Below are positions 5,975 through 64,000 of a stretch of 64,000 bases of DNA, piece by piece. Location: contig NC_079213.1 of assembly GCF_029633865.1 (NCBI RefSeq), positions 97,837,978-97,901,977 of the forward strand, read 5' to 3'. Position 1 is the stretch's first letter, and each line of letters begins with the position of its first letter. The stretch comes from Lampris incognitus (taxonomy: Eukaryota; Chordata; Actinopteri; Lampriformes; Lampridae). Under the pieces are notes generated by a model, which was not told the origin of the DNA, made no database searches, and saw nothing but the letters and a program-made list of their open reading frames with translations. The position numbers were made by a program, and so were the translations under genes.

Positions 5975-7126
5975 CTAAACACTGTATGGTCTTGCAGAGG
6001 GCACTCTAGAAGAATCAGGGACATTTCTGCCCACACTTTCGAAAAATGAGGCCATGGCTAGGACTAAAGGTCTTCCTAGTTCACCATAACAGAGTCTCTC
6101 AGGGGGATGTCTTTCTCTGATAGATCTTCTGATCGGTTCGCTCTCAGACGGGTTTCCGTCAGACAGGTCAGCCTGGCCTGTCACACCAGTGGGCGGTGCA
6201 CTCTCGGGTTCAAGTGGGTTGTTTTCAGGTGAACGTCCTTCAATAGGTCCAAATTGAGGTACAACAGTAGTAGATGATGCGGGGTCTCCCTCAGGTAAGT
6301 GTCTTCGAACAGGTTGAGAGAATTCCTCTGTGACTACTTCTGTCTCACGCCCAATTGGTTTCTTTTCAAGTAACTGATTGTGAACAGACTCAGGGGTATG
6401 GGGTACTTCACTAAGGAGTGGACTATCAGATTGGGAGAACTCCGACGGACTTGGATTCAACCCGACTGGGTTCAACAGTTCCGTGGCACGTGCTAGAGGG
6501 GTGGCCTGTGTGGTTGTCCTAATGCTTTGGGGAAACCTTGTGGAGATCTGTGGATAGCAATCCTCATCCTCGTCACTGCTGGGCATATCTGGGTCAACAA
6601 TATTGTCTTGCCTGGTCTGCTGCGAGACTGTTTCCCTGCGTCTCAGCCTCCTTGTTGGTAAGTTTGTGTCAGGTTCTGAGACTTTATCTGTAACAGGTAG
6701 AAAGCCGCAGGGCAGAAGAAGGTCTCTGTGAAGGGTACGGTGTGGACCTTCACCCTGTTCTTGCTTGACGACATACACTGGGCCATCTCCCATCCTCTTC
6801 ACCACAGTATGGACTTCCTTTTCCCATCTGTCCGCAAGTTTATGTTTTCCTCTTAAATTGACATTCTTCACCAGGACTCTATCTCCGGTAACAAGTTCTG
6901 CGGCTCTGATCTTTTTATCAAACCTGGCTTTATTCTTCTCTCCCATCTTCTTAGAGCTTTCAGAAGCAAGTGCATAGCTGTCTTGGAGGCGCTGTCGAAG
7001 ATGTTTAACATACTCTGAATGCGACTTGAATCCAATTTGGTCTGGTGTAAGGCCTTGGCTGTCTACCAAACAACAATTCATATGGAGAGTAGCCTGTGGT
7101 GTCATTTTTCGTGCAATTGTATGCAT
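5975..7126 (-). pseudogene. Gypsy pol C-terminus (integrase GPY/F region plus tail)
   Basis: This 383-codon open frame starts inside what was a polyprotein, so its first Met is not a true start. Residues about 55-125 hold a basic segment, KARFDKKIRAAELVTGDRVL, followed by RGKHKLADRWEKEVHTVV and a PVYVV block. That is the usual layout of the integrase GPY/F domain that follows the catalytic core in Ty3/gypsy elements. The tail of about 240 residues is acidic, Pro/Ser/Thr-rich and low in hydrophobics. The DDE core is absent upstream and the pol reading is interrupted, so no active integrase is encoded. The open frame of over 1.1 kb suggests a fairly recent insertion. Confidence 0.75.
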
Positions 7127-7440
7127 GGACTAGCGGTTTGACAAAGTCCCTCCAATGATATTTATCCTTGTCTTCTAGCGCTCAGTGCGGTCAGGCTGAA
7201 TCTGAGAAAGCACACCACCTGGACCGTAATCAGAAGTGTCGGTCGACACCACAGTAAGAAGTTCAGGGTCGAAGAAAGCGAGAGCTGGACTGTCCACTAA
7301 CAGTTTTTTTCATAGCATGGAAACTGCGCCACGCTTCTTTTGACCAAGTGAACTCGTTGTCTTGGCGAATGCAAGCCCGTGGCGGCTCCACCACCGTAGC
7401 AAAGTTGGGGATGAATTTGTTATGCCACGACAAAAGTCCC

Positions 7441-7825
7441 GAAAAAGGGGTCAGCGGTGGTGTGGCGGACTAAGCATCGGCTTTGTGTCGATGCAGTTGC
7501 CCACTGGGGACCGGGGTTCGCGCGCCCCGGTCTCGTCGGATCCGACTATGGCCGGATTCGATGAAGCAACAATCATTGGCAGCGCTGTCTTCGGGAGGCG
7601 GGCGGAGTCGGTTTGTGTTCGTCACATGAATGCGTCTCTGTGTGTGTCGGAAAAAGCAGTGGTTCGGCCTGGATTGGTGGTGTGGCGTCTCCTTCCAGAC
7701 TGTCGGCCGGAGAGATGCAGTTGGCGAACGCATGCAGTACGAGGGTGGGTGTCTGAACTAGAATAGGGAGCGATTGGCCACTAAATCGGGAGAAAAAGGG
7801 AAAAATCAGAAATAAATTTAGAGGA
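7441..7825 (+). mobile_element. tRNA-derived SINE, family B, copy 1
   Basis: A 9-bp TSD (AAAAGTCCC) lies at 7432-7440 and 7826-7834. The head resembles a pol III promoter, with GGTGTGGCGGACTAAGC (A-box-like) and GGGGTTCGCGCGCC (B-box-like). The 3' end is AT-rich (GAAAAATCAGAAATAAATTT). Two other copies occur at 19893-20288 (+) and 56441-56826 (-). It splits the gypsy RT/RNase H region. Confidence 0.8.
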
Positions 7826-8458: not shown

Positions 8459-8483
8459 AGCATGTAACCCATCCTATTGTATA
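8459..8483. repeat. Old teleost repeat (family C), piece 1 of 3
   Basis: GTAACCCATCCTATTGTATA matches the start of the family C copy at 55192 (TTTAACCCATCCTAGCTGTG). The repeat resumes at 15236 after the Academ-like element and again at 19674 after the LINE. Confidence 0.65.
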
Positions 8484-8993
8484 TAGTCCATGGGCCAGAC
8501 GATATTTCGGTACACTCAAGGTGGCAAAACTTACTTATAATTTTTGAAAGGATCCATGTCTGTAGATGATATTTTGGTATGATAACCATTCCTGAGTGGC
8601 AGCTGTATCACAGTTATCAGCTCATGAAGTTAACCACCCGCTAAACTAAATTGCATTTTAGACGCTGGTGCATATCCTGGTTTAGCCTCATGGTCAGGAC
8701 ATTTTTCAATGTTCTATAATATTCATTCAAGCCCTGTTGTGGATATTTCTCACAAATATAGAGGTCACTTGAGCTCTTCAACCCGTCAATAACACACATC
8801 TTTCTGCAATTTTCGCCTAAACTATATACTTTCTTTTAGCCCTGTGGCATCTAGGAATATCAGGGACACAAAACACAAACACTGGAATACTCACAGGACT
8901 GTAAAGATTCAGGAAATGTATAATATACCCATACTATTTCATTGTGTGAGGTGATTGTGAGCCTTAAATGAGAACTAGACCAAAGCCAGTTAG
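8484..8993 (+). repeat. Left terminal inverted repeat of the Academ-like element
   Basis: About 510 bp, pairing with 14655-15235. Recognisable shared blocks are ACACTCAAGGTGGCAAAAC, GGCAGCTGTATCACAGTTAT, GTGGATATTTCTCACAAATA and CTAGACCAAAGCCAGTTAG. Identity looks high, with small indels. Confidence 0.85.
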
Positions 8994-9300
8994 GTCACAA
9001 ACTGGTCTCTATACATTTGTTTAAATACACAATCAAAATACATGATAAAAAGGAATACCATAGTGAGGTAATGAACTATTTTAATATTTTAAACAACATT
9101 GACATTTACATATACTTAGTCAATGATACATGTAATCCCATATCATTAGTGGGTATATGTAATGGTAATGGGTAGGGTAATGGGTATATGTGAATATGGT
9201 TACATTATTGTTATCAAGCTCTGGGTAACCAAGTCCAGAATCAACATCCTGTGCATCAATAGACTACTACCACAGTAATACCATCAGAATCATCACACTG

Positions 9301-9918
9301 TCATTCATCAAACTGCTCGTTTCTCTCATCATCTGACTCCCCAAGTTCAAAGTCCAGTTCTGGACCATCCTGCTGTGTTTGGTTACTGCAGGTCTGTAAC
9401 CTGCACATGTCTGTGCATGGAAGTCCATTTGACAGGCACATGCAGCTTGGCATTTTGCATGAATGCACACACTTGCATGTTAGCATTTCCAAGACCACAT
9501 CTGGTGCAGGTGGGGAGCGCATCCAGTAAATGGCCAGCTTGCCTTCATCGTCTGTCCATCCATACTCAGTAGGGCTTGGCACCACAGGGTTAGCCTGCAG
9601 ACAGCACTTCCATATTGCTGCCTGATAGTTGGCTCGTTGAACATGCATAAAGAGACAGTCTCTACATGGTGGCAGCTGGCTGGACTCAACCTCTCCCCTT
9701 TTGGTGCAGAAGAGCTGGTAACGCAGTTTGTTCACCTCAGCAGTGCTGCTATTAGCAACATACATCCGACAGGTGAACTGCTCAATTTTCTGGAACAGCT
9801 CATCACTCACATTCCATGTCTGTCCCAGTTGACTAAAAGTCTCTTGGCAGGAAGTGTGCTTTCTCACTATCTTCAGGGCATTCAGCTTCCCTCGACCAGC
9901 GAATGCACTGACAGTGTC
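9301..9918 (-). pseudogene. C-terminal continuation of the Academ-like protein (shifted frame)
   Basis: After the 4-bp insertion near 9919-9925 the reading resumes here with DTVSAFAGRGKLNALKIV, the natural sequel to the TGC that ends the good part of the upstream frame. Together these form the helix-two-turn-helix-like GCD...G.GK.NAL segment of a FEN/XPG-type nuclease. The piece has about 205 codons. Its second half holds a cysteine cluster (CKCVHSCKMPSCMCLSNG, then CTDMCRLQTCSNQ), a probable zinc-binding CXC-type tail, and it ends in an acidic stretch (ELDFELGESDDERNEQ). The stop is at 9301-9303. It would be translated only if the upstream frame were uninterrupted. Confidence 0.7.
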
Positions 9919-12900
9919 GCACGCAGCCTGTGAAGGCATGTAAGCCAATTAGGCTGTCACAGATGCTGTCTCCAAGTGAACTTGCCAGTTTGGTGATGTC
10001 GACAAACCGTGTGCGGTTCTGAGTCCCACACTTCTGGTAGATGGGACAGGTGATGTCCTTCTGGAAGCCAAGACAAAGCCCCATGACATCAGTGTCCTCA
10101 GCTGTGATGATAACTGACTTTGAGCTGACTGCTCCTGCATGCAATGCATGCAGGAGCAGACGGGTGTCAGCTTCTTCATGTGTGGAGTGCAGTTCTGCTG
10201 CTTCCTCACACCCATCTTCTGTCAACTTGTAGCAGGTTTCCTCACAGGTCATGTACAACACCTTGCCATGCAGCATAGCTCTGTATCGTGGGAGTTTCCA
10301 CTCTTCCACCACAAACTTGATGAGACTGGTCTTGTTGGAGGAACTGCACAGAAATATTCTCCACTGCTGGACGTGGTGTCCCCCTGCAAGATTCTTGTAC
10401 TGGAGAGTGATGTCTCCACCCCGGTTCAGTCGTTCAGCATCTTTGATCGAAGTCTGGTGATAGACATCAAAAACAACATCAATCCTCCCACTCTGTGCTC
10501 CCTCATGGAGGACCTGGGTCAAGGCTGACTCTGCCACCTGTGCAAAGGTTTTGTTGTTGCCATTCATTTTTTGGACCAGGCTCATCCCATCAATGATGGA
10601 AGTAGATGGGATTGGGATGTCTTCTGCAGGAGATACATTCTTTTCAAGCTCTCTGGCAAGTGCAGCCTTGTTTGTTTTTCGTAAGGAGCCATCAGCATTT
10701 GCCAGTGCCCATGGTAGTGGGCCCAATGGGTAGGCAAGGACATCCTTCAGATTCACCTTCCTGCTTTCAGCCACCAGGATCATGTGACTGAAAAGGTTTC
10801 TATCTGCCTTCAGAACCACATCCTGTGCTTTCTTTCCATGAGCTTGTTTTGTGCTGACATTGGAGAATATTTTCAGACTTTGCTTGGTCATCTTGTCGTG
10901 GAATTTCACAGGTGGTGGGTCTGCATCTAACCTTGTTTGCTGGAATGCTTGGTAGGCCTCTTCTCCTTTCTCAAGAGCTCTCAAGAGATCTATGGTCACA
11001 TCAGGTGGAGCCATGTTGCCAGTGGAGAGGCTAACCAAATCAATGTCATCAGGGGACATAGGATTGAGCCAGTTATTCTCCATAAGGTCCATGAGAGACT
11101 GGACATCTGCTTCATCTCTCTTGATCCTTGGACTCTGTAGATCTGGATGAGACCATTTGCACCTGCCTTGACCTGTCAGGTCTCTCAGCTGTCTGAGGTA
11201 CATGCTTCTATACTCAGCTGTGAGATAATATTTGGTCACAGCTCCTGGCTTCAAGCTGAATCCCTTTGTCCCTCCAGCTGTTTGGGTGTCTTTGTTCACC
11301 GTTTCTTCTATAGCTTGGTCAACAGGGATTCGGCCAAAGGGATTGGTGGAGCCCAGTTGGACTGAGAAGCCTCCTTCCATGAATTCTGTGTACACATCTG
11401 GGTGTGTGATGGGCAGCTCAGACATCTGGGCGTAGTAGTAGGGGAGGTAGCGTGCATAATTCATCCTGTCATAAGCAAAGCACCATGAGATCATTGCTCG
11501 AATGCTAGCCAAGTGTAGCATCCAGTCTCCCTCTCTGGATGCTCGGATGAGCCCCAACAAGATTTCAACCATGTCCAAATAGGACATCCAGAAGTTCGAG
11601 AGGCTGCCGTTTCCGACTCTAAGGGACTCACGGTAGACTTCAAATAGATCCATGATGCGTGTACAAGAGCTGTTCTCGAGGACCTCCTTCAAAGCATGTT
11701 GTGAGACTTCTTTCCCAAGGCTGTCAATGGTCTTCAGTGTCTCATTCAGGTGAACCATGTCATTCCTGTGAGTTTCTTCCAACCAGGACAGGAAACCATT
11801 CAAGGTCAGTCGCATGAGAGCCTCATACAGGAGCTTGTGTAGTCGCACTGCCCTGTTGTACTTGCGGCCATCCATAACACCAGCAATTGAGCCTTCTGCA
11901 ATCATGCCAGACTCAATGCAGAGGTCTTTGAGTCCAGCATCTTGGAAACGCTTTCCTATTATTGCCAGCAGTGTGCAGATGGTGTGGAATACCCCAAGCC
12001 TAATGATGATATCATGGAACTTGTCATGGTGTTTCCATGTGATCTCGACAGCCTTCGCATACAGGGCTTGGTCAAAGACACAGACAATCTTCCTCAGGCC
12101 TAAGCACTGCATGATGCTCAGTGACTGGTTAAGCACCTCGTTGACAGTAGACATTTGTGTCACTGGAGCATTGATGGTAGGCAGATAGCCTATATTGTCG
12201 GGGATGACCGTCATCTCTCCTCGAGTCAGGATGTTGAAGCCTGTCCAGCTGCTGACTGACTGTTCTTCTTGTTGTGACATGCGTGCTAGGACCCAAAGAA
12301 GGTTTTTCTCTCTGGCAAGCTTAGTATTGGCTGCAGTATCGGCATCTGACTTTTTGCTTTGTGGTGGCCCTACCCGTTGTCCAGCATTGTAAGTTGGTAA
12401 CATTGGTGGGGGTCCATCAATGCTTCTCTTCTTTGTTTTGGGAACAGTGGGCATGGGTTGGACAGGAAGTGGGTTGACTGGCTTTGCTTGCACAGCAATC
12501 CCATTGACTCTGTGAGATGTTCCCTCACCATTGACAGTTTCTTCAAGACGGTCGATATTGTCCCAGGCTAAAGTTGTGAATATGCCAGGATGGATGTTAG
12601 CTGGAAGGGCAATGCCACTCCCTGATGATGAGAGTTTCTGGAGACACAGGGCAGTGTTGATCTCTTCCATCTGTGAATAGGACACACTGTGACCAAGTCG
12701 GTTGAGGATGTTTATCAACTCTACATTTCCTGTCAACGATTTGACACTGAATGGCAGAACAATGTGCTTGGAAGGCTTGGTATTTCCACATGTCACTGCA
12801 TATACTATGTCATGGCCAAATGACTGCAGAAGGCACTGCACTCTCTGGGATGCATGATCAGGATCATTTGAGCCTGTGAGTAGAGAGTACAGGAAGATAA

Positions 12901-13981
12901 TGAGCGACTCTGGAATGGTAGGACATTCTGCTTCTGGTTTGACTTCAGGCGGCCAGGTTTGAGGAACATCTTGACTTTTAATGTCTGCTCTCAATTTGAT
13001 GGCTGCTTTGGCTATAACATCTTGTGCACTGACACTTTTCAGGGTCTGCAGCTCCCTTTTGAGAGACTGATTTTCTTTGGCAAGTTCCCTCATGGACAAG
13101 TTATCGGGATAGAGGAGGAATTTTCCTTTCTCATCAGGGAATATCTGCAAGGCTCCAGCAAACTCACTCTCCAGGTTTCGCCTTATGTGCTTCTTGGTTG
13201 ATTCCTTGACTTGGGCAATGCCTTGGGAGTTCATTGAAGCTACCAGTCTAGAAGAGAGATCAGTCATTGTCATCACTTGAGGATTGCCAAAAAGCTCCAT
13301 CCTGATGAAGAGGAACAGCTCATTGTATGCCTTATTCACATCAGCTTCATACTGGGCTGCAGCATCATCATCTTCATTGCTGGCAACCTCTCCTTTGGAA
13401 ACCTCTTCTTTGGTGTAAAGTCTATAGCATGACCTGTGGTAGTGCCCTTCAGCTGCTACAAGGTCTCTTCTCACAATGGCAAGGATTCTGCTGTCCCTTT
13501 TCTTTGTGGCTGCACTCCTGATCTTTGCATCAGCTCGCAGTTCTAGACACTGCACCAGTACTTCTCTCGTATTCTGTCTCTTGGAATATTTGCTGTTTTT
13601 CTGACAAAATATGCACTCTGCATCATAAGTCCTAGATGTACTTGGAGCATGTCGAGCTACTCTCTTAGATTGTTTCTTTTCAGCAGAGACACAACTTTTC
13701 TTTTCTTTTGCAAGGAGGCCATCAAGAATTTGCTTCATAGTGAAGATACTGCGACACTTTCTGTGGTAGTAGATTGCTGGAATCTGTCCCTCAGGAATGT
13801 CTTTTGCCAGTTTCAAAACTGGTGCATGATTTCGTATCTGAGCTGCCCTGAGCAGAGTTCTCCATGAGTCGACACTTTGTAGTGAAACCAGCTTATCTGT
13901 ATCATCAGAACAGTGGATAATGCACTCCACCCGTGGGCGCTTTGGTATTGGGTAAAAACCTGCTTGTTCACCAGTGGCCAT
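9833..13981 (-). CDS. Large Academ-like transposase: paired zinc knuckles, RNase H-like core, FEN/XPG-like nuclease
   Basis: This 1382-codon ORF is the element's main protein. Two N-terminal zinc-knuckle-like modules come first, with matching HRKC and HRSC ends: CIIHCSDD...YYHRKCRSIF (residues about 20-80) and CIFCQKN...HYHRSCYRLY (about 120-190). A coiled region follows near 300-330. The middle has acidic motifs AWDNIDRLEET and VFDQALYAKA, then FHTICTLLAIIGKRF and EGSIAGVMDG, likely the DNA-cutting core (inference). Residues about 1166-1353 follow FEN/XPG order: IDVVFDVYHQTSIKDAERL, HEEADTRLLLH (1268-1278), AEDTDV (1294-1299) and LHAFTGC (1347-1353). The last 29 residues are out of frame because of a 4-bp insertion; the true sequel is in 9301-9918. 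The start Met at 13981 opens a sensible protein directly inside the right TIR. Such proteins are typically seen as uncharacterised multicopy genes in fish. Confidence 0.75.
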   Translation of the reverse strand: MATGEQAGFYPIPKRPRVECIIHCSDDTDKLVSLQSVDSWRTLLRAAQIRNHAPVLKLAKDIPEGQIPAIYYHRKCRSIFTMKQILDGLLAKEKKSCVSAEKKQSKRVARHAPSTSRTYDAECIFCQKNSKYSKRQNTREVLVQCLELRADAKIRSAATKKRDSRILAIVRRDLVAAEGHYHRSCYRLYTKEEVSKGEVASNEDDDAAAQYEADVNKAYNELFLFIRMELFGNPQVMTMTDLSSRLVASMNSQGIAQVKESTKKHIRRNLESEFAGALQIFPDEKGKFLLYPDNLSMRELAKENQSLKRELQTLKSVSAQDVIAKAAIKLRADIKSQDVPQTWPPEVKPEAECPTIPESLIIFLYSLLTGSNDPDHASQRVQCLLQSFGHDIVYAVTCGNTKPSKHIVLPFSVKSLTGNVELINILNRLGHSVSYSQMEEINTALCLQKLSSSGSGIALPANIHPGIFTTLAWDNIDRLEETVNGEGTSHRVNGIAVQAKPVNPLPVQPMPTVPKTKKRSIDGPPPMLPTYNAGQRVGPPQSKKSDADTAANTKLAREKNLLWVLARMSQQEEQSVSSWTGFNILTRGEMTVIPDNIGYLPTINAPVTQMSTVNEVLNQSLSIMQCLGLRKIVCVFDQALYAKAVEITWKHHDKFHDIIIRLGVFHTICTLLAIIGKRFQDAGLKDLCIESGMIAEGSIAGVMDGRKYNRAVRLHKLLYEALMRLTLNGFLSWLEETHRNDMVHLNETLKTIDSLGKEVSQHALKEVLENSSCTRIMDLFEVYRESLRVGNGSLSNFWMSYLDMVEILLGLIRASREGDWMLHLASIRAMISWCFAYDRMNYARYLPYYYAQMSELPITHPDVYTEFMEGGFSVQLGSTNPFGRIPVDQAIEETVNKDTQTAGGTKGFSLKPGAVTKYYLTAEYRSMYLRQLRDLTGQGRCKWSHPDLQSPRIKRDEADVQSLMDLMENNWLNPMSPDDIDLVSLSTGNMAPPDVTIDLLRALEKGEEAYQAFQQTRLDADPPPVKFHDKMTKQSLKIFSNVSTKQAHGKKAQDVVLKADRNLFSHMILVAESRKVNLKDVLAYPLGPLPWALANADGSLRKTNKAALARELEKNVSPAEDIPIPSTSIIDGMSLVQKMNGNNKTFAQVAESALTQVLHEGAQSGRIDVVFDVYHQTSIKDAERLNRGGDITLQYKNLAGGHHVQQWRIFLCSSSNKTSLIKFVVEEWKLPRYRAMLHGKVLYMTCEETCYKLTEDGCEEAAELHSTHEEADTRLLLHALHAGAVSSKSVIITAEDTDVMGLCLGFQKDITCPIYQKCGTQNRTRFVDITKLASSLGDSICDSLIGLHAFTGCVRHCQCIRWSREAECPEDSEKAHFLPRDF

Positions 13982-14654
13982 ATTCAGTCAGTTTTCACCT
14001 GCCACATACAAACAAATACATGTAACTTAGGTGTATGAACACTACTAAAACAAAGTTTACTTTGCTTCACCAGCGTCATATTACCATTATTTATCTTACA
14101 TAGCCACAAATAGATACATTACCTAGTTGTTATGCAACAGCTGTATTTTGTCCACATGAGGCCGCTAAAATCAACACAAGATGAAAGTTCCTCGTAGCCA
14201 CTTTAACTAATCATATTAACATATACATTAAAAGAACATGCTAACATTATGGGAAATTAGCTTACAATCGTCTCCAGAGTGAGACAAGAAGATAGATACC
14301 AGTTTCCTCTATATATGTTTAGTAGAAAGCTATCTGGCTGTTAGCCTAGCTTAGCACAATGAATGGAAGTACACAGTACTGGTTATCCTTGGTTGTTGGC
14401 CAACTAAGAACTGTCCCAGAGTTTAAGCTAGGCTAATCAGTACCAGGGGTGTTGAAATGCTATATTTGTAAAAATCTGGGCAAATACACAATCGTGAGAG
14501 GCACAGAAACAGGTTTCCTGAAAGAAAAATGAAATAGCTGCTCATTTGGAAAGGTTATCATGTATTATTTTACTTCTGTTAGTGTACCAAATAAAATGGC
14601 ACCAGTGAAGTTGTGTCACCTTGGGGGATATCGATATCTGGTCTGACCCATGGA
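13982..14654. other. 5' leader region of the Academ-like element
   Basis: Non-coding sequence between the ORF start and the right TIR. It probably holds the element's promoter. A degenerate second copy of the terminal motif (GACCCATGGACTAAC) lies at 14645-14657. Confidence 0.4.
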
Positions 14655-15235
14655 CTAACTGGCTTTGGTCTAGTTAGTTTCTTAGTAATAATGCCCTTCT
14701 AATTTAAGGTTCACAATCACCTCACACAATGAAATAGTATGGGTATATTATACATTTCCTGAATCTTTACAGTCCTGTGAGTATTCCAGTTTTTGTGTTT
14801 TGTGTCCCTGATATTCCTAGATGCCACAGGGCTAAAAGAAAGTATATAGTTTAGGCGAACACTGCAGAAAGATGTGTGTTATTGACGGGTTGAAGAGCTC
14901 AAGTGACCTCTATATTTGTGAGAAATATCCACAACAGGGCTTGAATGAAAGCTAAGAAGGTCCCCTTTAAAATGATACCAAAGACAATATTATAGAACAT
15001 TGAAAAATGTCCTGACCATGAGGCTAAACCAGGATATGCACCAGCGTCTAAAATGCAATTTACTTTAGGGGGTGGTTAACTTCATGAGCTGATAACTGTG
15101 ATACAGCTGCCACTCAGGAATGGTTATCATACCAAAATATCATCTACAGACATGGATCCTTACAAAAATTATAAGTAAGTTTTGCCACCTTGAGTGTACC
15201 GAAATAGGAAATTTTGGGCTCTGGCCCATGGACTA
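14655..15235 (-). repeat. Right terminal inverted repeat of the Academ-like element
   Basis: About 580 bp, inverse of 8484-8993. It has extra bases near 14950-14990 (AAGCTAAGAAGGTCCCC...) that are absent on the left. Confidence 0.85.
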
Positions 15236-15322
15236 ATAGGAGCAGTGGGCAGTTGCAGCGCCCAGGGACCAACTCCAGTTCTTCTTTCCATTGTCTTGGT
15301 CAGCAGCACAGACAGGAGTATT
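15236..15322 (-). repeat. Old teleost repeat (family C), piece 2 of 3
   Basis: GGAGCAGTGGGCAG...GGGACCAACTCCAGTTC...CTTGGTCAG...GCACAGAC matches 55216-55300 of the intact copy. It ends in AGACAGGAGTATT (15310-15322), which is repeated at 19674-19686 beyond the LINE. Confidence 0.8.
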
Positions 15323-15710: not shown

Positions 15711-16717
15711 TTATGGATCCTCTAAGAGTCTAAGTGGATGTCTAATTTTTTCCAGCTTGATGCAATTTAAAACAGCTTTAATCCGGACAGCATGGAAAGG
15801 GGGTGCCGGAGATTTCCATCTAAGCAAGATCAATCGCCTCGCCAACAGGGTGACAAAGGCAATTATGTCCTTATTCATTTTGGTCAGTCGTAATGTGGGT
15901 GAGGTAACCCCAAATAGGGCAATGAGTGGGTCTGGTTCAATCTGTGTGCCGCTTATTTCAGAGAGTGTGTTAAATATATCTTCCCAAAAACTAACAAGAG
16001 ATGGGCAACCCCCAAAACATATGAACATGATTTGCAGGGGATTGGTTACACCTTACACAGTTAGGGCTAACATCTTTGTAAATTTTGGATAATCTCTCTT
16101 TGGTCCAGTGAGCCCTGTGAATGAGTTTGCATTGGATGAGGCCGTGTCGGGCACAAACAGAGGAGGTGTGTACCCTTTTGAGTGCCTCTACCCATAATTT
16201 GTCAGGTATTTCCTCACCCAGTTCCACCTCCCATGAAGATTTAACATCGTTGAATGAGGTGGCCTGTAGAGACCAAATTTGTCTATAGGCTATTGTCAGG
16301 GTACTTTTCAGAGTAGGAAGGGGGGTAAGAAAAGTGTCAAACTGTGTCACTAGGAAGAGTGGGGAATTGAGGATCTATGCTGCAGATATAACTCTGGATC
16401 TGTAACTACCTAAAAAAAAAAATGTCTGGGAAGCCCAAATTTGGTTGAGAGCTGCTCAAATGTAGGAAATGTATTATTAATATAGAGATCTCTGAACCTT
16501 TTAATACCAAAACCAGACCACATTGAGAAAGCACTGTCCACCATAGATGGGGGAAAGCCGGATTTGAGGCCACCGGGGCATAAAAAGAAGTTGTCTGAAA
16601 CCCAAAATGGCATCTAAATTGGTTCCAGATCCTCAATGTTGTTTTGACACACATTTTTAGTGAAGAAGTGATGAGGGCCTGTAATGGAAAAGTGAGTGAG
16701 GGAAGACAATGATGCAT
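15711..16717 (-). pseudogene. LINE ORF2 C-terminal region (zf-RVT and tail)
   Basis: Frames at 16406-16717, 15991-16350 and 15711-16028 continue the LINE ORF2 with shifts between them. The middle frame has DKLWVEALKRVHTSSVCARH, IQCKLIHRAHWTKERL and a CVRCN...HMFWG knuckle, typical of the domain after LINE RTs. The last part runs FWEDIFNTLSEISG and LIALFGV. The frameshifts make it non-functional. Confidence 0.75.
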
Positions 16718-18098
16718 ATGAGGCGGCCTCCATCTCTAGCCAAATTGGGGGTGTGGATATTTCTTTGCTCTGCAACCAGTACTGAATGGTCCTGAGATTA
16801 GCAGCCCAGTAGTAGGACCTGAAATCTGGTAGCGCTAGGCCTCCGTCTGACTTGGGCCTCTGCCAGAGCTGCTTTCGCATCCTAGGAGACTTTTCATCCC
16901 ATATAAAAGGTAAAATTAGGCCATCAATCTTTTTAAAAAAGTTATTGGGAAGAGAAATCGGCAAGCATTGAAAGAGATATAGGAATTTAGGGAGGGTGTT
17001 CATTTTAATAGAATTAATTCTTGCGACTAAAGAGAGGTGCAGCAATGACCAGCATTCTAAATCGTCCTTAGTATGGGTTAAAATGGAAACAAAGTTGGCC
17101 TGAAAGAGGTTTTCAAGTCTGTTTGTGACATGTACACCGAGAAAGGTCAAAGTATTATGAACCGTTTTAAATGGAAAGTTATGTAGAGAGAAACTTTTTG
17201 CGGCCACATTAAGTGGCATCACTTCACTTTTACTAAAATTCAGTTTATACCCTGATAAGTGACCAAAGGATGTGAAAGTGGCAAGAGCCGGAGGGACAGA
17301 AACAGAAAGGTCGGATATATATAACAATAAATCATCTGCATATAGACAGATTGTGTTCGTTTCCGTGTCTAATTATACCTTTAATGAGAGGACTGGAACG
17401 AAGTTTTATTGTCAGGGGTTCTATGGCAAGGGCAAATAGCAAGGGACTTAAAGGGCAATCCTGGCGTGTTGACCGTTGCAGGAGAAAATACCCCAATTGA
17501 GTGTTATTGTCCCTGACAGAAGCTTGGGGGGGATGAGTACAAAAGTCCTCTCGAAGTAATGAATTTGGAGCCAAAGCCGAATTTGTTTAGGGTGTAAAAA
17601 AAGGTATTTCCACTCCACCCGGTCGAATGCTATCTCTGTGTCTAGGGATATGATGGCCTCGGAAGTGGTTGTGATAGAGGGATTATATATATATAATATT
17701 AAACAACCTTCATAGATTAAAGAATGAGTGTCTGTTCTTAATAAATCCTGTTTGATCAGGGGAGATAATTGTTGGGAGAACTGTTTTGAGACGTGCTGCC
17801 AGAAGTTTGGCTAGAATTTTATAGTCAACATTTAACAAACTAATTGGATGGTTTGATGCGCAGTCAAGAGGGCCTTTGTTTTTTTTTTAAGGATAAGACA
17901 GATAGTTGCCTGGGTGAGAGTCTGTGGGCGAGTGCCATTTACAAATGCTTCATTGTACATTTCAATTAGAATAGGGACTATTTTGGAAAACAACTTTTTG
18001 TAAAACTCTGCTGAATAGCAGTCAGGTCCAGGACTTCTCCCAGATTGAAGGGAACTGACAGCGTTAGACAATTCTTCGACGGTGATCGGTTGTTCCAA
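16614..18098 (-). pseudogene. LINE ORF2 reverse transcriptase (broken)
   Basis: The motifs appear in order on the minus strand. At 18098-17832 are ELSNAVSSLQSGRSPGPDCY and the ATICLILKK block. At about 17574-17332 are QDCPLSPLLFALAIEPLT and LIKGII. The frame at 17327-16614 starts inside the catalytic region at LYISDLS and continues with GYKLNFSKSEVMPLN, the NTLTFLGVHV block and IWDEKSPRMRKQLWQRPK. The pieces lie in different frames with stops between them, and the sequence between 17832 and 17574 has lost its frame, so no active RT is made. Confidence 0.8.
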
Positions 18099-19892: not shown

Positions 19893-20288
19893 GTAGTCCG
19901 TGGGAGTGTAGCGGTCTAAGCATCGGCTTTGTGTCGATGCAGTTACCCACTGGGGACTGGGGTTGGCGCCTCGGTCTCGTCAGATCCGACTATGGCCGGA
20001 CTCGACAAAGCAGTAATAATTGGCAATGCTGTCTTCGAGAGGGGGGCAGAGTCGGCTTGTGTTCGTCACATGAATGTGTCTCTGGGAGTTTCGGAAAAAG
20101 CAGTAGTTCGGCCTGGAGTCGCCTTGTCACGAAAGTGGCGAGGCGTCTCCTTCGAGACTGCCGGCCAGAGAGATGCAGTTGGCAAACGCATGCAGTACGA
20201 GGGTGGGTGTTTGAACTAAAAGAGGGAGCGATTGGCCACTAAATTGGGAGAAAAAGGGAAAAATCAGAAATAAAATTAAAAAAAAATG
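19893..20288 (+). mobile_element. tRNA-derived SINE, family B, copy 2
   Basis: Matches 7441-7825 through most of its length (TAAGCATCGGCTTTGTGTCG, GACTATGGCCGGA, AACGCATGCAGTACGAGGG, GAAAAATCAGAAATAAA). The flanking 8-bp repeat TATTTTCA lies at 19885-19892 and 20289-20296. Confidence 0.8.
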
Positions 20289-32242: not shown

Positions 32243-51203
<18,961 letters not shown>

Positions 51204-54820: not shown

Positions 54821-57800
54821 CTGGACAGGCAGGGGAGAAGCAGAGAAAGAGCGGAGGGGAGAAGCAGACAGAGAGCGGAGCCTCACATTTAGTTATAGGG
54901 TGACCACTGTGCATTAAGTAAGCACACACTGGAGATTATGTCTCTAACTCACTGACCCCCCCCCCCCCGTTTGTGATGAAGTGATCTGATTGGCCGAGAG
55001 CCATAGTTACTAAAACATCATGGGAGCTCCATCACTTCAGCGGTATTATTCCACTTCCAAAAGCTGATTTCATCGACTTCTGATTTCACCAGCTGTCATC
55101 AAGAGGCCATGTTAAAAGTGGATGTTTCAAAATTTTAATTTTTTTCATTTTGAGATACTTTATTGATCCATGTGGGGAAATTACGCTCTGCATTTAACCC
55201 ATCCTAGCTGTGTAGCTAGGAGTAGTGGGCAGCTGCCGTACAGCACCTGGGGACCAACTCCAGTTCATCTTGCCATGCCTTGGTCAGGGGCACAGACCCC
55301 TATGGAGTCTTAACTCTAACATGCATGTCTTTTTGATGGTGGGGGAAACCGCAGCATCTGGAGAAAACCCACCGCAGACACGGGGAGAACATGAAAACTC
55401 CACACAGAGGATGACTTGGGATGACCCCCAAGGTTGGGCTACCCTGGGGTTCGAACCCAGGACCTTCTTGCTGTGAGGGGACGGCGCTAACCACTGTGTC
55501 ACCGTGCCACAGATACCCAATAAATATCCAGACAGCTTGACTTAGACAATGCACGTGCATGTGTGCACACACACACACATGCCACTAGTGAAGCAAGCAG
55601 GCTTTTCTGATGCTAACGCTAACACATATCCTACAACACCCACACCTTCTTCTCTAACTGGACAAAGAACAGTATTGTACCGATTAGCTTACACAAGCAA
55701 AACCAGTATGTATAAAAGCAGAAAGCTCTACATAAACTAGTTTATATGCTCGCAACATTTGTCTTCACTTTACTGCTCAGAATGTGACATCGTTACTTAG
55801 CTGCACAGCAACAAGTCACTACAGTTTTTGGTGGAAGAAATTGCAAATATTGAAGATATATTTTAAACAAAGTTTTAGGTCCTTTTTTTTTTACAGTGTA
55901 AAAAATTTGTGTAAAAGCAATAGAACACCTCAGGTGGTGTGTTATTGTGAATAAAATCACAGCTGTGATCATCAGGGGTGGGACGTACTGGGTCGAATTC
56001 CAAATCGTTCGATATGGTCCTCACGGTTCAAGACGCTCCCCATTTCGCAAGATCATGTGTTATTAACTAGAACGACCAGGATTTCACTCCTACCTAAAAT
56101 GGCTGCCAGTTTTTAAACCCTATATTCTGTCAAGATAAATACCCAATTGAGATATTAATCCACTGCATATGTTAGTATGTCTGTTAGGAAACGACTGACA
56201 CCCAAATTAACATTTTAACAACTATAATATTGTAGCAAATTCAGGCGGCAGCCGGGACGCGAACCCGGGTCTCCTGCACCACGGGCGACTACGTTAAGCA
56301 GTCAACTAATGGGTCCGACCCGTTAGCCAACGAGCTAGTGAGTTTACACATCCATGATTGTTACAGTACTATTTTTTCAAACAATTTAAAATCGCCGCTG
56401 TCCAACGCCTGTAAATACTGCAACGCCTCGATGGTAGTCTATAAATTTATTTCTGATTTTTCCCTTTTTTCTCCCAATTTAGTGGCCAATCGATCCCTAT
56501 TTTAGTTCAAACACCCACCCTCGTACTGCATGTGTTCGCCAATTGCATCTCTCCGGCTGGCAGTCTCGAAGGAGACGCCTCCCCACTTTCGTGACAAGGC
56601 GAATCCAGGCTGAACCACTGCTTTTTCCGACACACACAGAGACGCATTCATGTGACGAACACAAGCCGACTCCTCCCCCCTCCCGAAGACAGCATTGCCA
56701 ATTATTGCTGCTTCGTGGAGTCCGGTCATAGTCGGATCTGACGAGACCGGGGCGCGAACCCCGGTCCCCAGTGGGCAGCTGCATCGACACAAAGCCAATG
56801 CTTAGACCGCTACACCACCGTGGACCCCTCGGTGGTAGTCTGCGTCTGAAACGGCGGCTGTAACCAGATATGTTGGAAATACCTGAAAAACGGAAAACAC
56901 ATATTGTTAATCTAATGTAACGAGGCCTATAAAACGTGAAATGTAAAAAAAGAACTGAACGTTGTGAAAGAAATGATGTGAACAACACACGTCCTATATA
57001 GTGACATGACGCGCAAATTACGCACGGTCATTTTGACCGCTCATAGTCGTTTTAGGTAGATCTTGTAACTTTTTTGTGTGCAATGGATCTAAAACTAATT
57101 TTAATGCAAATATATACAATTTTAGGAGCATTCTGGGGGCGGCAGGTCTGTTTTTTCCCCACAAAGTTATTAAACTTTGAAAATGTTGCTCTGTTAGTTT
57201 AAAGTTTTAAAGTAAAGTAAAAATTGTGTCACACAAGATAGCACAAAATGTTGTTAGAACTTTTGCACTTGCATTACGTGTGAATACGTGCCTTGACAAT
57301 GCCAAAATGTTGGGCCTAATTCTTAAAATAGATTAAAAATAGAGAACTGCAATGCTGTTTTGTCTCTTGCTTACCAAGGCGTCCACTGCATCGTATTGCA
57401 TCGAAATCGTGAGAGGTATCGAACCGTGAGATTTGTGAATCGTCCCACCCCTAGTGATCATCTACAGCACTCGCCTTTGGCTTGCGCCCGCAACCAAATA
57501 TATTCTCTGCACCACTGCTCTTTATCGCCTCTTATTTCACCTCTGTATATAGTCAATCCTTGTGCATATATCTGAAGATTGTTGTGTTGTTATTCTATAT
57601 TAAGTACACTGTGAGAGCCACAAAACTGGAGTCAAATTCCATGTGTGTGCAAACCTACATGGCCAATAAATAAAATCTGATTCTGAACCAAATCATAGCC
57701 CTAATATATGTATTTGCATTAACACACTCCCTCTCATGTTCTCTGGCTAAAATACAACACATTCCTGTGCGAGACACAGAACCACCACATCATAAGTGGC

Positions 57801-61699: not shown

Positions 61700-62239
61700 G
61701 GTTATCCAGAGTTGAATCAAGTGCAACTGGACTTGGTGTATATCCGTGAAGACGTTTCGCCTCTCATCCAAGAGGCTTCCTCAGTTCATGCCTTTCTGAC
61801 TAGACCAAGCTAGTCTGACTGGCTGGTGATGAGACTCAGAATTTATCCTCTTTGGAGTCGTTGTCAGAACTATAGATGTCCATGGCTCTTTGTGTTCCGA
61901 TATTTACCAACGCCCGTCGCTAACAGAGCCTTAGATATGAGTGGCTCTTTTGTGTACCGATGTTTGGCCGTGCCCGTCGTTATCGGAGCTATTGATTTTC
62001 ATTTGTTTGAGAGAAAGAAACGATGTTGGTAAACATCGGAACACAAAGAGCCATGGAGATCTATAGCTCTGACAACGACTCCAAAGAGGATAAATTCTGA
62101 GTCTCATCACCAGCCAGTTAGACTAGCTTGGTCTCGTCAGAAAGGCACGAACTGAGGAAGCCTCTTGGATGAGAGGCGAAACGTCTTCACGGATATATTC
62201 CAAGTCCAGTTGCACTTGATTCAGCTCCTTTGGATAACC
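61700..62239. repeat. 540-bp fold-back inverted repeat
   Basis: The arms 61700-61911 and 62024-62239 pair almost throughout (GAATCAAGTGCAACTGGACT, GAAGACGTTTCGCCTCTCAT, CCATGGCTCTTTGTGTTCCG and their inverses). The loop (61912-62023) contains partial copies of the arm end (GGCTCTTTTGTGTACCGATG). The GACGTTTCGCCTCTCATCC motif is common in fish retroelement tails. Confidence 0.9.
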
Positions 62240-63090: not shown

Positions 63091-64000
63091 ATGGAGGAAT
63101 TTGGTGCTGCCGACAACGAGCCCGATGATCAGCATACCAGAAAGATCGTCACTCCAGAGAATCTTAGGAGTGCGATTTGGAAACACTTTGGTTTTTGGAC
63201 TGTAAATGGAAAGACTGAAAACAAGGACAAGGTAATATGCAAACTATGTGAGCGTGAACTAGCATACCATAGTTCCACGACCAACCTACATGCAGTTCCA
63301 TCATCCGGCCGAATACAAAGAACTGCAGGACCCTGCTGGTGCGTCTGCTGCTGCTAAACAACCCAGGCTGACAACGTTTTTCTCACCTTCAGCTGCTCTG
63401 TCCTCTACACGAAAAGAGGCGATCACTTCACAACTCACCAAATTCATATGTAAAGACATGCGGCCAATAAGCATCGCGGAAGGTGGAGGCTTTAAAGATT
63501 TTCTCCGTGAAATTGAGCCACGTTACACTATCCCGAGCAGAACCACAATAACTAAAAACATTGTGAAACTCTACGATACTACTCGTGAAAATGTACGCCA
63601 GATACTAAGCGATAAGGAAATTGCACTCACTACAGATGGGTGGACGTCTGTAGCCACAGACTCTTATGTTACAGTTACAGCACACGTAATGTCGGAGGCA
63701 TGGGAACTGAACGATTTTGTCCTACAAACGAAAGACTTGGGAAGTAGCCACACTGCAGAAAATGTCGCGGAGTGCATTTCTGGCACACTGAGGGATTTTC
63801 ACATTCCCCGTGAATCGGTGATCGCAGTCACAACAGACAATGCACATAACTATGTGCATGCAGCTGTGGAGAGGTACCTCGATACCGTTAACATACCTTG
63901 CATGGCACATACAATCAATCTAGCTGTACGTAAAGGGCTAGCCGTCAGAGCCATAGACACGACACTTAGCAGGCTAAAGAAAGCAGCCGCACATTTCGGC
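63091..64000 (+). pseudogene. Second hAT transposase (ZBED type), runs off the window end
   Basis: Starts at MEEFGAADNEPDD. The BED finger follows: IWKHFGFWTVNGKTENKDKV, CKLCERELAYHSSTTNLHA. A single frame change near 63290-63300 is needed; after it the frame is open to position 64000. That stretch reads HHPAEYKELQDP, KQPRLTTFFSPSAAL, ALTTDGWTSVATDSYVTVTA (the first catalytic Asp region of hAT), VIAVTTDNAHNYVHAAV (the second Asp region) and IPCMAHTINLAVRKGL. This is the usual hAT order, and the alpha-helical insertion and C-terminal dimerisation domain should follow outside the window. One indel in over 300 codons suggests a fairly young copy. The 5' end may lie in the AT-rich sequence near 62830-62935. 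Confidence 0.82.

Follow-up and report, generated by a model that had tools for sequence, protein, structure and literature searches.

A stretch of 64,000 nucleotides from the genome of Lampris incognitus (RefSeq assembly GCF_029633865.1, contig NC_079213.1, positions 97,837,978 to 97,901,977; hereafter, the window) contains a DNA transposon of 6752 bp at 8484..15235, with the minus strand as its coding strand. The original prediction, made from the sequence of the window, described a transposon with near-perfect ends, ATA on both flanks, and terminal inverted repeats (TIRs) of over 500 bp; its coordinates proved to be exact, and all of these features are present. The two copies of the target site duplication (TSD), ATA, are seen in the flanking sequence at 8481..8483 and 15236..15238. 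The element begins with TAGTCCATGGGCCAGA at 8484, the reverse complement of this sequence finishes at 15235, and the ends are identical over 16 bp. Relative to the open reading frame (ORF), the 3' TIR lies at 8484..8993 and the 5' TIR at 14655..15235 (both minus strand), and they pair in three blocks: 8503-8723 with 14986-15206 (99%), 8722-8974 with 14697-14949 (98%), and 8973-8993 with 14655-14675 (100%). In the majority sequence of 21 copies, the gapped TIR alignment covers ~580 bp 5' of the ORF and 548 bp 3' of it, i.e., the 3' TIR is shorter in the window copy. Hairpin folding of the transposon ends showed nothing unusual (z of -1.30 and 0.24).

Two frames of the element, 13981-9833 and 9948-9301, encode a giant protein and together span 9301..13981 on the minus strand. 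As had been predicted, an ORF of 1382 codons from its ATG (1384 amino acids, stop to stop) is followed by a continuation frame, which is 215 amino acids long, and the named motifs occur in the order stated; the ORF is broken in the window copy by a 4-bp insertion near 9918-9928. The unbroken protein has 1558 amino acids in three other copies (L024, L026, and L027), and residue numbers below refer to that of L026 (P0001). Two Cys/His modules are found toward the N-terminus, CIIHC...YHRKC (13742..13930, minus strand; P0001 residues ~18-80) and CIFC...YHRSC (13412..13618, minus strand; residues ~122-190). Both of these modules, described earlier as zinc knuckles with matching HRKC and HRSC ends, exist, and the likeness holds for their ends, which are the only parts that align together (score of 49, versus 44 for the best of 500 shuffles). 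A presumed DDE transposase core is placed at 11303..12565 (minus strand), with candidate acidic motifs WDN (residue 473), VFDQ (635), and DQAIEE (888). The predicted Cys-rich C-terminal tail is present at 9385..9480 (minus strand), with eight cysteines in the window copy, L009, and L024, and seven in L026 and L027.

When the giant protein was searched as a single sequence against Pfam, PHROGs, NCBIfam, and PDB, nothing significant was returned, no match to Academ was seen in these libraries, and the RNase H-like core that had been proposed received no support. No helicase family was listed for P0001 at E-values up to 10 in Pfam and NCBIfam, in a scan that misses most matches above ~0.1. Relatives were also sought by exact short peptides or tblastn, a procedure that distant kin would escape: there was no match in viral contigs or in phages, and 10 stretches of prokaryote genomes fit the pattern, none of which was a relative by tblastn.

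Copies, Target Sites, and Mobility

The 16-bp end occurs as an exact match 1323 times in the forward and 1318 times in the reverse orientation in the 1.48 Gb genome, and the same pattern read in reverse does not occur at all; the frequency of the ends is far beyond chance. Lengths were surveyed in the first 100 end sites listed, all on one contig, with only those ends visible that are exact over 16 bp. These sites formed 44 pairs and left 12 unpaired: 35 pairs span 6773-6793 bp, four span 5853-6580 bp, one spans 2502 bp, and four exceed 7 kb. Since only one of the 44 pairs is below 3 kb, short internal-deletion derivatives are rare in this one-contig sample. If the sample holds genome-wide, the family would by extrapolation make up ~0.4-0.6% of the genome.

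For a detailed comparison we used 21 copies, i.e., the window copy and 20 of the first 24 end pairs listed. Four pairs (5853, 6327, 6580, and 17954 bp) were left out, and the set therefore leans toward full-length elements. The copies diverge by 0.27-0.56% from their majority sequence, with a mean pairwise difference of 0.78%; the transposon is apparently young, abundant, and recently active. As a separate observation in the same 21 copies, the TIRs differ from the majority by 0.52-0.53%, and the ORF with the untranslated regions by 0.29-0.35%.

A TSD of 3 bp had been expected in other copies of the element, and this expectation withstood the comparison: a perfect TSD of exactly 3 bp flanks 18 of the 21 copies, with CCA, CCT, TGT, AGA, AAA, and CTT among the sequences. 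Empty sites were sought by joining, for every one of the 21 copies, its two flanks via one TSD copy and comparing the result with the window and the sequence fetched with the copies. The joined flanks of L015 match two uninterrupted repeats in the window, one at 61709..61839 (plus strand; 98%) with one ATA at the insertion point, and another at 62097-62236 (minus strand; 96%), gap-free at the junction. L022 and L024 were inserted ~37 bp apart in one repeat, and each supplies the empty site of the other: their joined flanks agree with the uninterrupted flank of the other copy at 95 and 99 of 100 bases, with no gaps. The empty sites of these three copies indicate that insertion added the element and exactly 3 bp. 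No clear empty site was found for the remaining copies in the sequence compared; a candidate for the window copy at 55190-55297 was rejected as too weak (only 79%, with gaps at the junction).

Two side observations concern these sites. The region 61709-62227 is an inverted repeat with arms of 203 nt, 96% complementary and 113 nt apart, and L015 sits in another copy of it. L013 and L014, both without a TSD, face opposite ways at a distance of 29 kb; an inversion between them was suspected and may have occurred, but by eye a crosswise fit of their flanks is seen at just one of the junctions.

The reading frame is unbroken, with no stop codon or frameshift, in four of the 21 copies, L009 (1555 codons) and L024, L026, and L027 (1558 codons each). 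Some of the broken copies have their lesions in common. L019 and L020, 36 kb apart and with different TSDs (TGT versus AAA), have a pair of stop codons and 19 rare variants in common; a frameshift is shared by L015 and L016, 134 kb apart and with different TSDs; another is shared by L013 and L014; and a stop at codon 713 is shared by L016 and L022, ~4 Mb apart. On the simplest reading, broken copies reached new sites with the help of protein acting in trans; neighbouring copies may instead have undergone gene conversion. The pairs richest in common rare variants (L013/L014, L015/L016, L019/L020, L024/L025, and L025/L026) are all 29-134 kb apart, and three of them (L013/L014, L015/L016, and L019/L020) have ORF-breaking mutations in common. 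Because all of the top variant-sharing pairs are neighbours, local jumping is suggested.

We also classified the changes in the ORF. There are 194 nonsynonymous, 59 synonymous, and 12 stop changes among singletons, and 23, 8, and 4, respectively, among shared changes. The expected fractions are 0.70, 0.26, and 0.04, and the observed values are near neutral, as expected after insertion.

The Nuclease Segment

The C-terminal part of the protein had been predicted to resemble FEN/XPG nucleases. The corresponding domain, from IIDG to past GRGK, lies at 9778..10606 (minus strand), and its frame is broken in the window copy. In P0001, the motifs are IIDG (1129), VVFD (1169), EEAD (1269), EDTD (1295), GCDT (1352), and GRGK (1361), among them the acidic motifs known from FEN/EXO1 enzymes; all six motifs are kept in the four unbroken copies.

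A search of the genome with PF00867 (XPG_I) scored nine candidates and gave five matches; at three of these loci, visual inspection recognised XPG-, EXO1-, and FEN1-like exons. These exons, together with 12 of 74 archaeal FENs, were combined in a mixed profile and compared with the element using hhalign. Residues 1240-1400 matched this profile with P=6.8e-4, and none of 200 shuffles was as good. In addition, the element aligns with the EXO1-like exons through E-A-D, ED.D, SLGD, GCD, and G.G...A.K..R, an alignment equalled by one of 1000 shuffles. The best supported part, EAD...EDTD...GCDT...GRGK, lies at 9859..10174 (minus strand), where the EXO1-like alignment covers the whole and the mixed profile covers GCDT...GRGK. 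The two N-terminal motifs, IIDG and VVFD, were recognised by eye only. The prediction stands on profile and exon alignment for the C-terminal half of the domain and on motifs alone for its N-terminal half. These comparisons support a C-terminal segment of the FEN/EXO1 type, and a full FEN fold is likely.

A Buried End and Neighbouring Repeats

The element contains a second, divergent version of its left end, TAGTCCATGGGTCAGACCAG, at 14638..14657 (minus strand), no more than 3 bp away from where the 5' TIR ends on its inner side. In the orientation of the ORF, this buried end, TAGTCCATGGGTCAGA, matches the true end at 15 of 16 bases, after which patchy similarity continues for ~130 bp. All 21 copies have the sequence TAGTCCATGGG at this place. 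Over the whole stretch, the similarity scored 411, versus a maximum of 391 in 300 shuffles, which is a narrow margin; a separate comparison gave 167, versus 162 for the best of 100 shuffles. The weight of the observation comes from the 15 identical terminal bases of 16 at the TIR border, and not from the long-stretch score. A search of the element for a right-hand counterpart had a negative outcome, with 232 of 300 shuffles scoring as high. On the simplest reading, the present long TIRs would have been added outside an older end.

Other repeats of the window were noted in passing. A repeat resembling a tRNA-derived short interspersed element (SINE) is present at 7455-7822, 19898-20280, and 56450-56825, with the copies 88-92% alike in blocks. 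One of them starts next to TAGTCCGTGGG, a mimic of the transposon end, and a transposon end with one mismatch at 19894 was discarded since by eye it is the edge of such a repeat. The transposon is flanked by fragments that look retroelement-like by eye, at 5975-7129 and 16614-17372 (both minus strand; an integrase-like tail and a part of a reverse transcriptase of a long interspersed element). Farther away, an open frame of 356 codons at 44631-45701 (minus strand) is Tc1/mariner transposase-like, and an open frame that leaves the window, at 63263-64000 (plus strand), is ZBED/hAT-type transposase-like, both by eye.

Affiliation and Possible Mechanism

Academ elements carry a Cys8 zinc finger, and the nuclease of their AcademX lineage is of the XPG type. 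PIF/Harbinger elements have a 3-bp TSD of the TWA type, which is not the type seen here, as the TSDs listed above demonstrate, and the TSD of Kolobok elements also differs from that of our element. According to the passages of PMC10045372 that describe the lineages, AcademX TSDs are 3 or 4 bp and AcademH TSDs are 9 or 10 bp, a difference that is tied to the encoded nuclease versus helicase; Kojima 2020 is the source paper for the lineage. The element, with its 3-bp TSD and a nuclease, falls within the AcademX range; it is probably a member of AcademX, judged by TSD length and nuclease against Academ as known by description only. The proposal of an Academ-type element is upheld for these two features, whereas the claim of a poorly described system is not, since an AcademX lineage that combines a nuclease with TSDs of 3-4 bp is already in print (PMC10045372, in the same passages). 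AcademH would belong to the same superfamily if this assignment is right; however, it has the longer TSDs and a helicase in that account, and our element has a 3-bp TSD, the scans having listed no helicase family for its protein.

Like Academ elements, the transposon is large and has TIRs, and its 6752 bp are not far above the mean length of 5.6 kb that the excerpted text of PMC10294476 gives for curated bivalve Academ. It differs from AcademX, as compared by description, in having the older end at the TIR border. The extrapolated share of ~0.4-0.6% of the genome contrasts with the survey figures quoted from PMC4746887, in which Academ makes up 0.01-0.02% of the genomes of zebrafish, medaka, and stickleback and is absent from tetraodon. 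Compared with host EXO1, FEN1, and XPG, the motifs E-A-D, ED.D, GCD, and G.G...A align with EXO1-like exons and GCD...G.G...A with the mixed profile, whereas the nuclease of the element is joined to a presumed transposase and is too divergent for PF00867. A transposase with an added nuclease is also known from Kolobok lineages, including KolobokP; however, these accessory nucleases are of the His-Me, DEDDh, or PD-D/ExK type, and KolobokP has long direct repeats (relevant parts of PMC9587614).

Another superfamily with 3-bp TSDs, such as PIF/Harbinger, or an undescribed one, may have acquired a FEN-type nuclease independently. This would agree with a protein that no Pfam family recognises, but the TSDs are not TWA-like, and the eight-cysteine tail of some copies would fit the Academ Cys8 finger. 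The combination of a nuclease with a TSD of 3-4 bp is, furthermore, the AcademX profile (PMC10045372, as excerpted), and we consider an origin outside Academ rather unlikely.

The reading that we hold to be quite likely is that of an autonomous, recently active transposon of the AcademX lineage, with a flap-removing nuclease and with broken copies moved in trans. The N-terminal Cys/His modules may guide the presumed central DDE transposase to the terminal repeats, and the transposase would cut the element out and link it to the target strands with a spacing of 3 bp. Both the TSDs and the empty sites support joining with such a stagger, whereas the analysis gave no evidence for the unusual excision or hairpin-processing step that had been proposed. 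The C-terminal nuclease would then remove 5' single-stranded flaps at transposon-target or donor junctions, which would let the gaps be filled and sealed, and protein from unbroken copies would move the broken ones in trans.

Several results weigh against this reading. The TSD is imperfect by one mismatch in L011 and missing from L013 and L014, and no reference Academ transposase was included in the comparison. When the 74 archaeal FENs alone formed the profile, the match was no more than suggestive (P=0.026, with three of 150 shuffles as high). The match to the mixed profile spans 51 columns only, in register on GCD...G.G...A, and residues 1111-1260 fit that profile no better than shuffles (52 of 200). 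EXO1 was chosen after the likeness had been spotted by eye, and it was the only host nuclease aligned singly. None of the five loci matched by PF00867 holds the element, and the AlphaFold2 model of the nuclease region of the window copy, built from one sequence, was unusable (pLDDT 33). Finally, the changes in the ORF look neutral, so that no selection on the nuclease is demonstrated.

The nuclease could also act as EXO1 does, at the donor break, where it would resect 5' ends after excision and steer repair to the sister chromatid, so that the complete element is restored and each jump becomes a net gain. The direct resemblance to the EXO1-like exons of the genome, the 35 of 44 pairs of 6773-6793 bp with one under 3 kb (in the one-contig listed sample), and the more than 1300 ends in each orientation are in its favour. 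However, resemblance to EXO1, the one nuclease aligned singly, leaves the substrate unfixed, the sample comprises 44 pairs from one contig with exact 16-bp ends, and other elements, too, can consist largely of full-length copies in a young burst. We regard such resection as unlikely and prefer 5' flap removal at the joints, resection being the bolder inference. It is less likely still that an end-resection nuclease of its own turns cut-and-paste into faithful net gain by copying back the whole element; if true, resection would explain why young copies are numerous and almost complete in length while short derivatives are few. On this reading, the buried older end would show that elements of this kind are able to build new and longer ends outside previous ones. 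A nuclease segment that survives as a remnant without catalytic activity, or a related fold that serves DNA binding only, would accord with the N-terminal half lacking profile support and with the lack of demonstrated selection, but is very unlikely given acidic motifs that are in order in P0001 and present in the four unbroken copies, and EXO1-like residues that align.

The finding matters partly because the teleosts in the quoted figures of PMC4746887 contain little or no Academ sequence. Our searches of the open-licence literature listed no biochemical work on an Academ nuclease. The family has unbroken copies that are almost identical, its ends are exact, and empty sites are known; the role of a transposon-borne FEN/EXO1-type nuclease thereby becomes testable.

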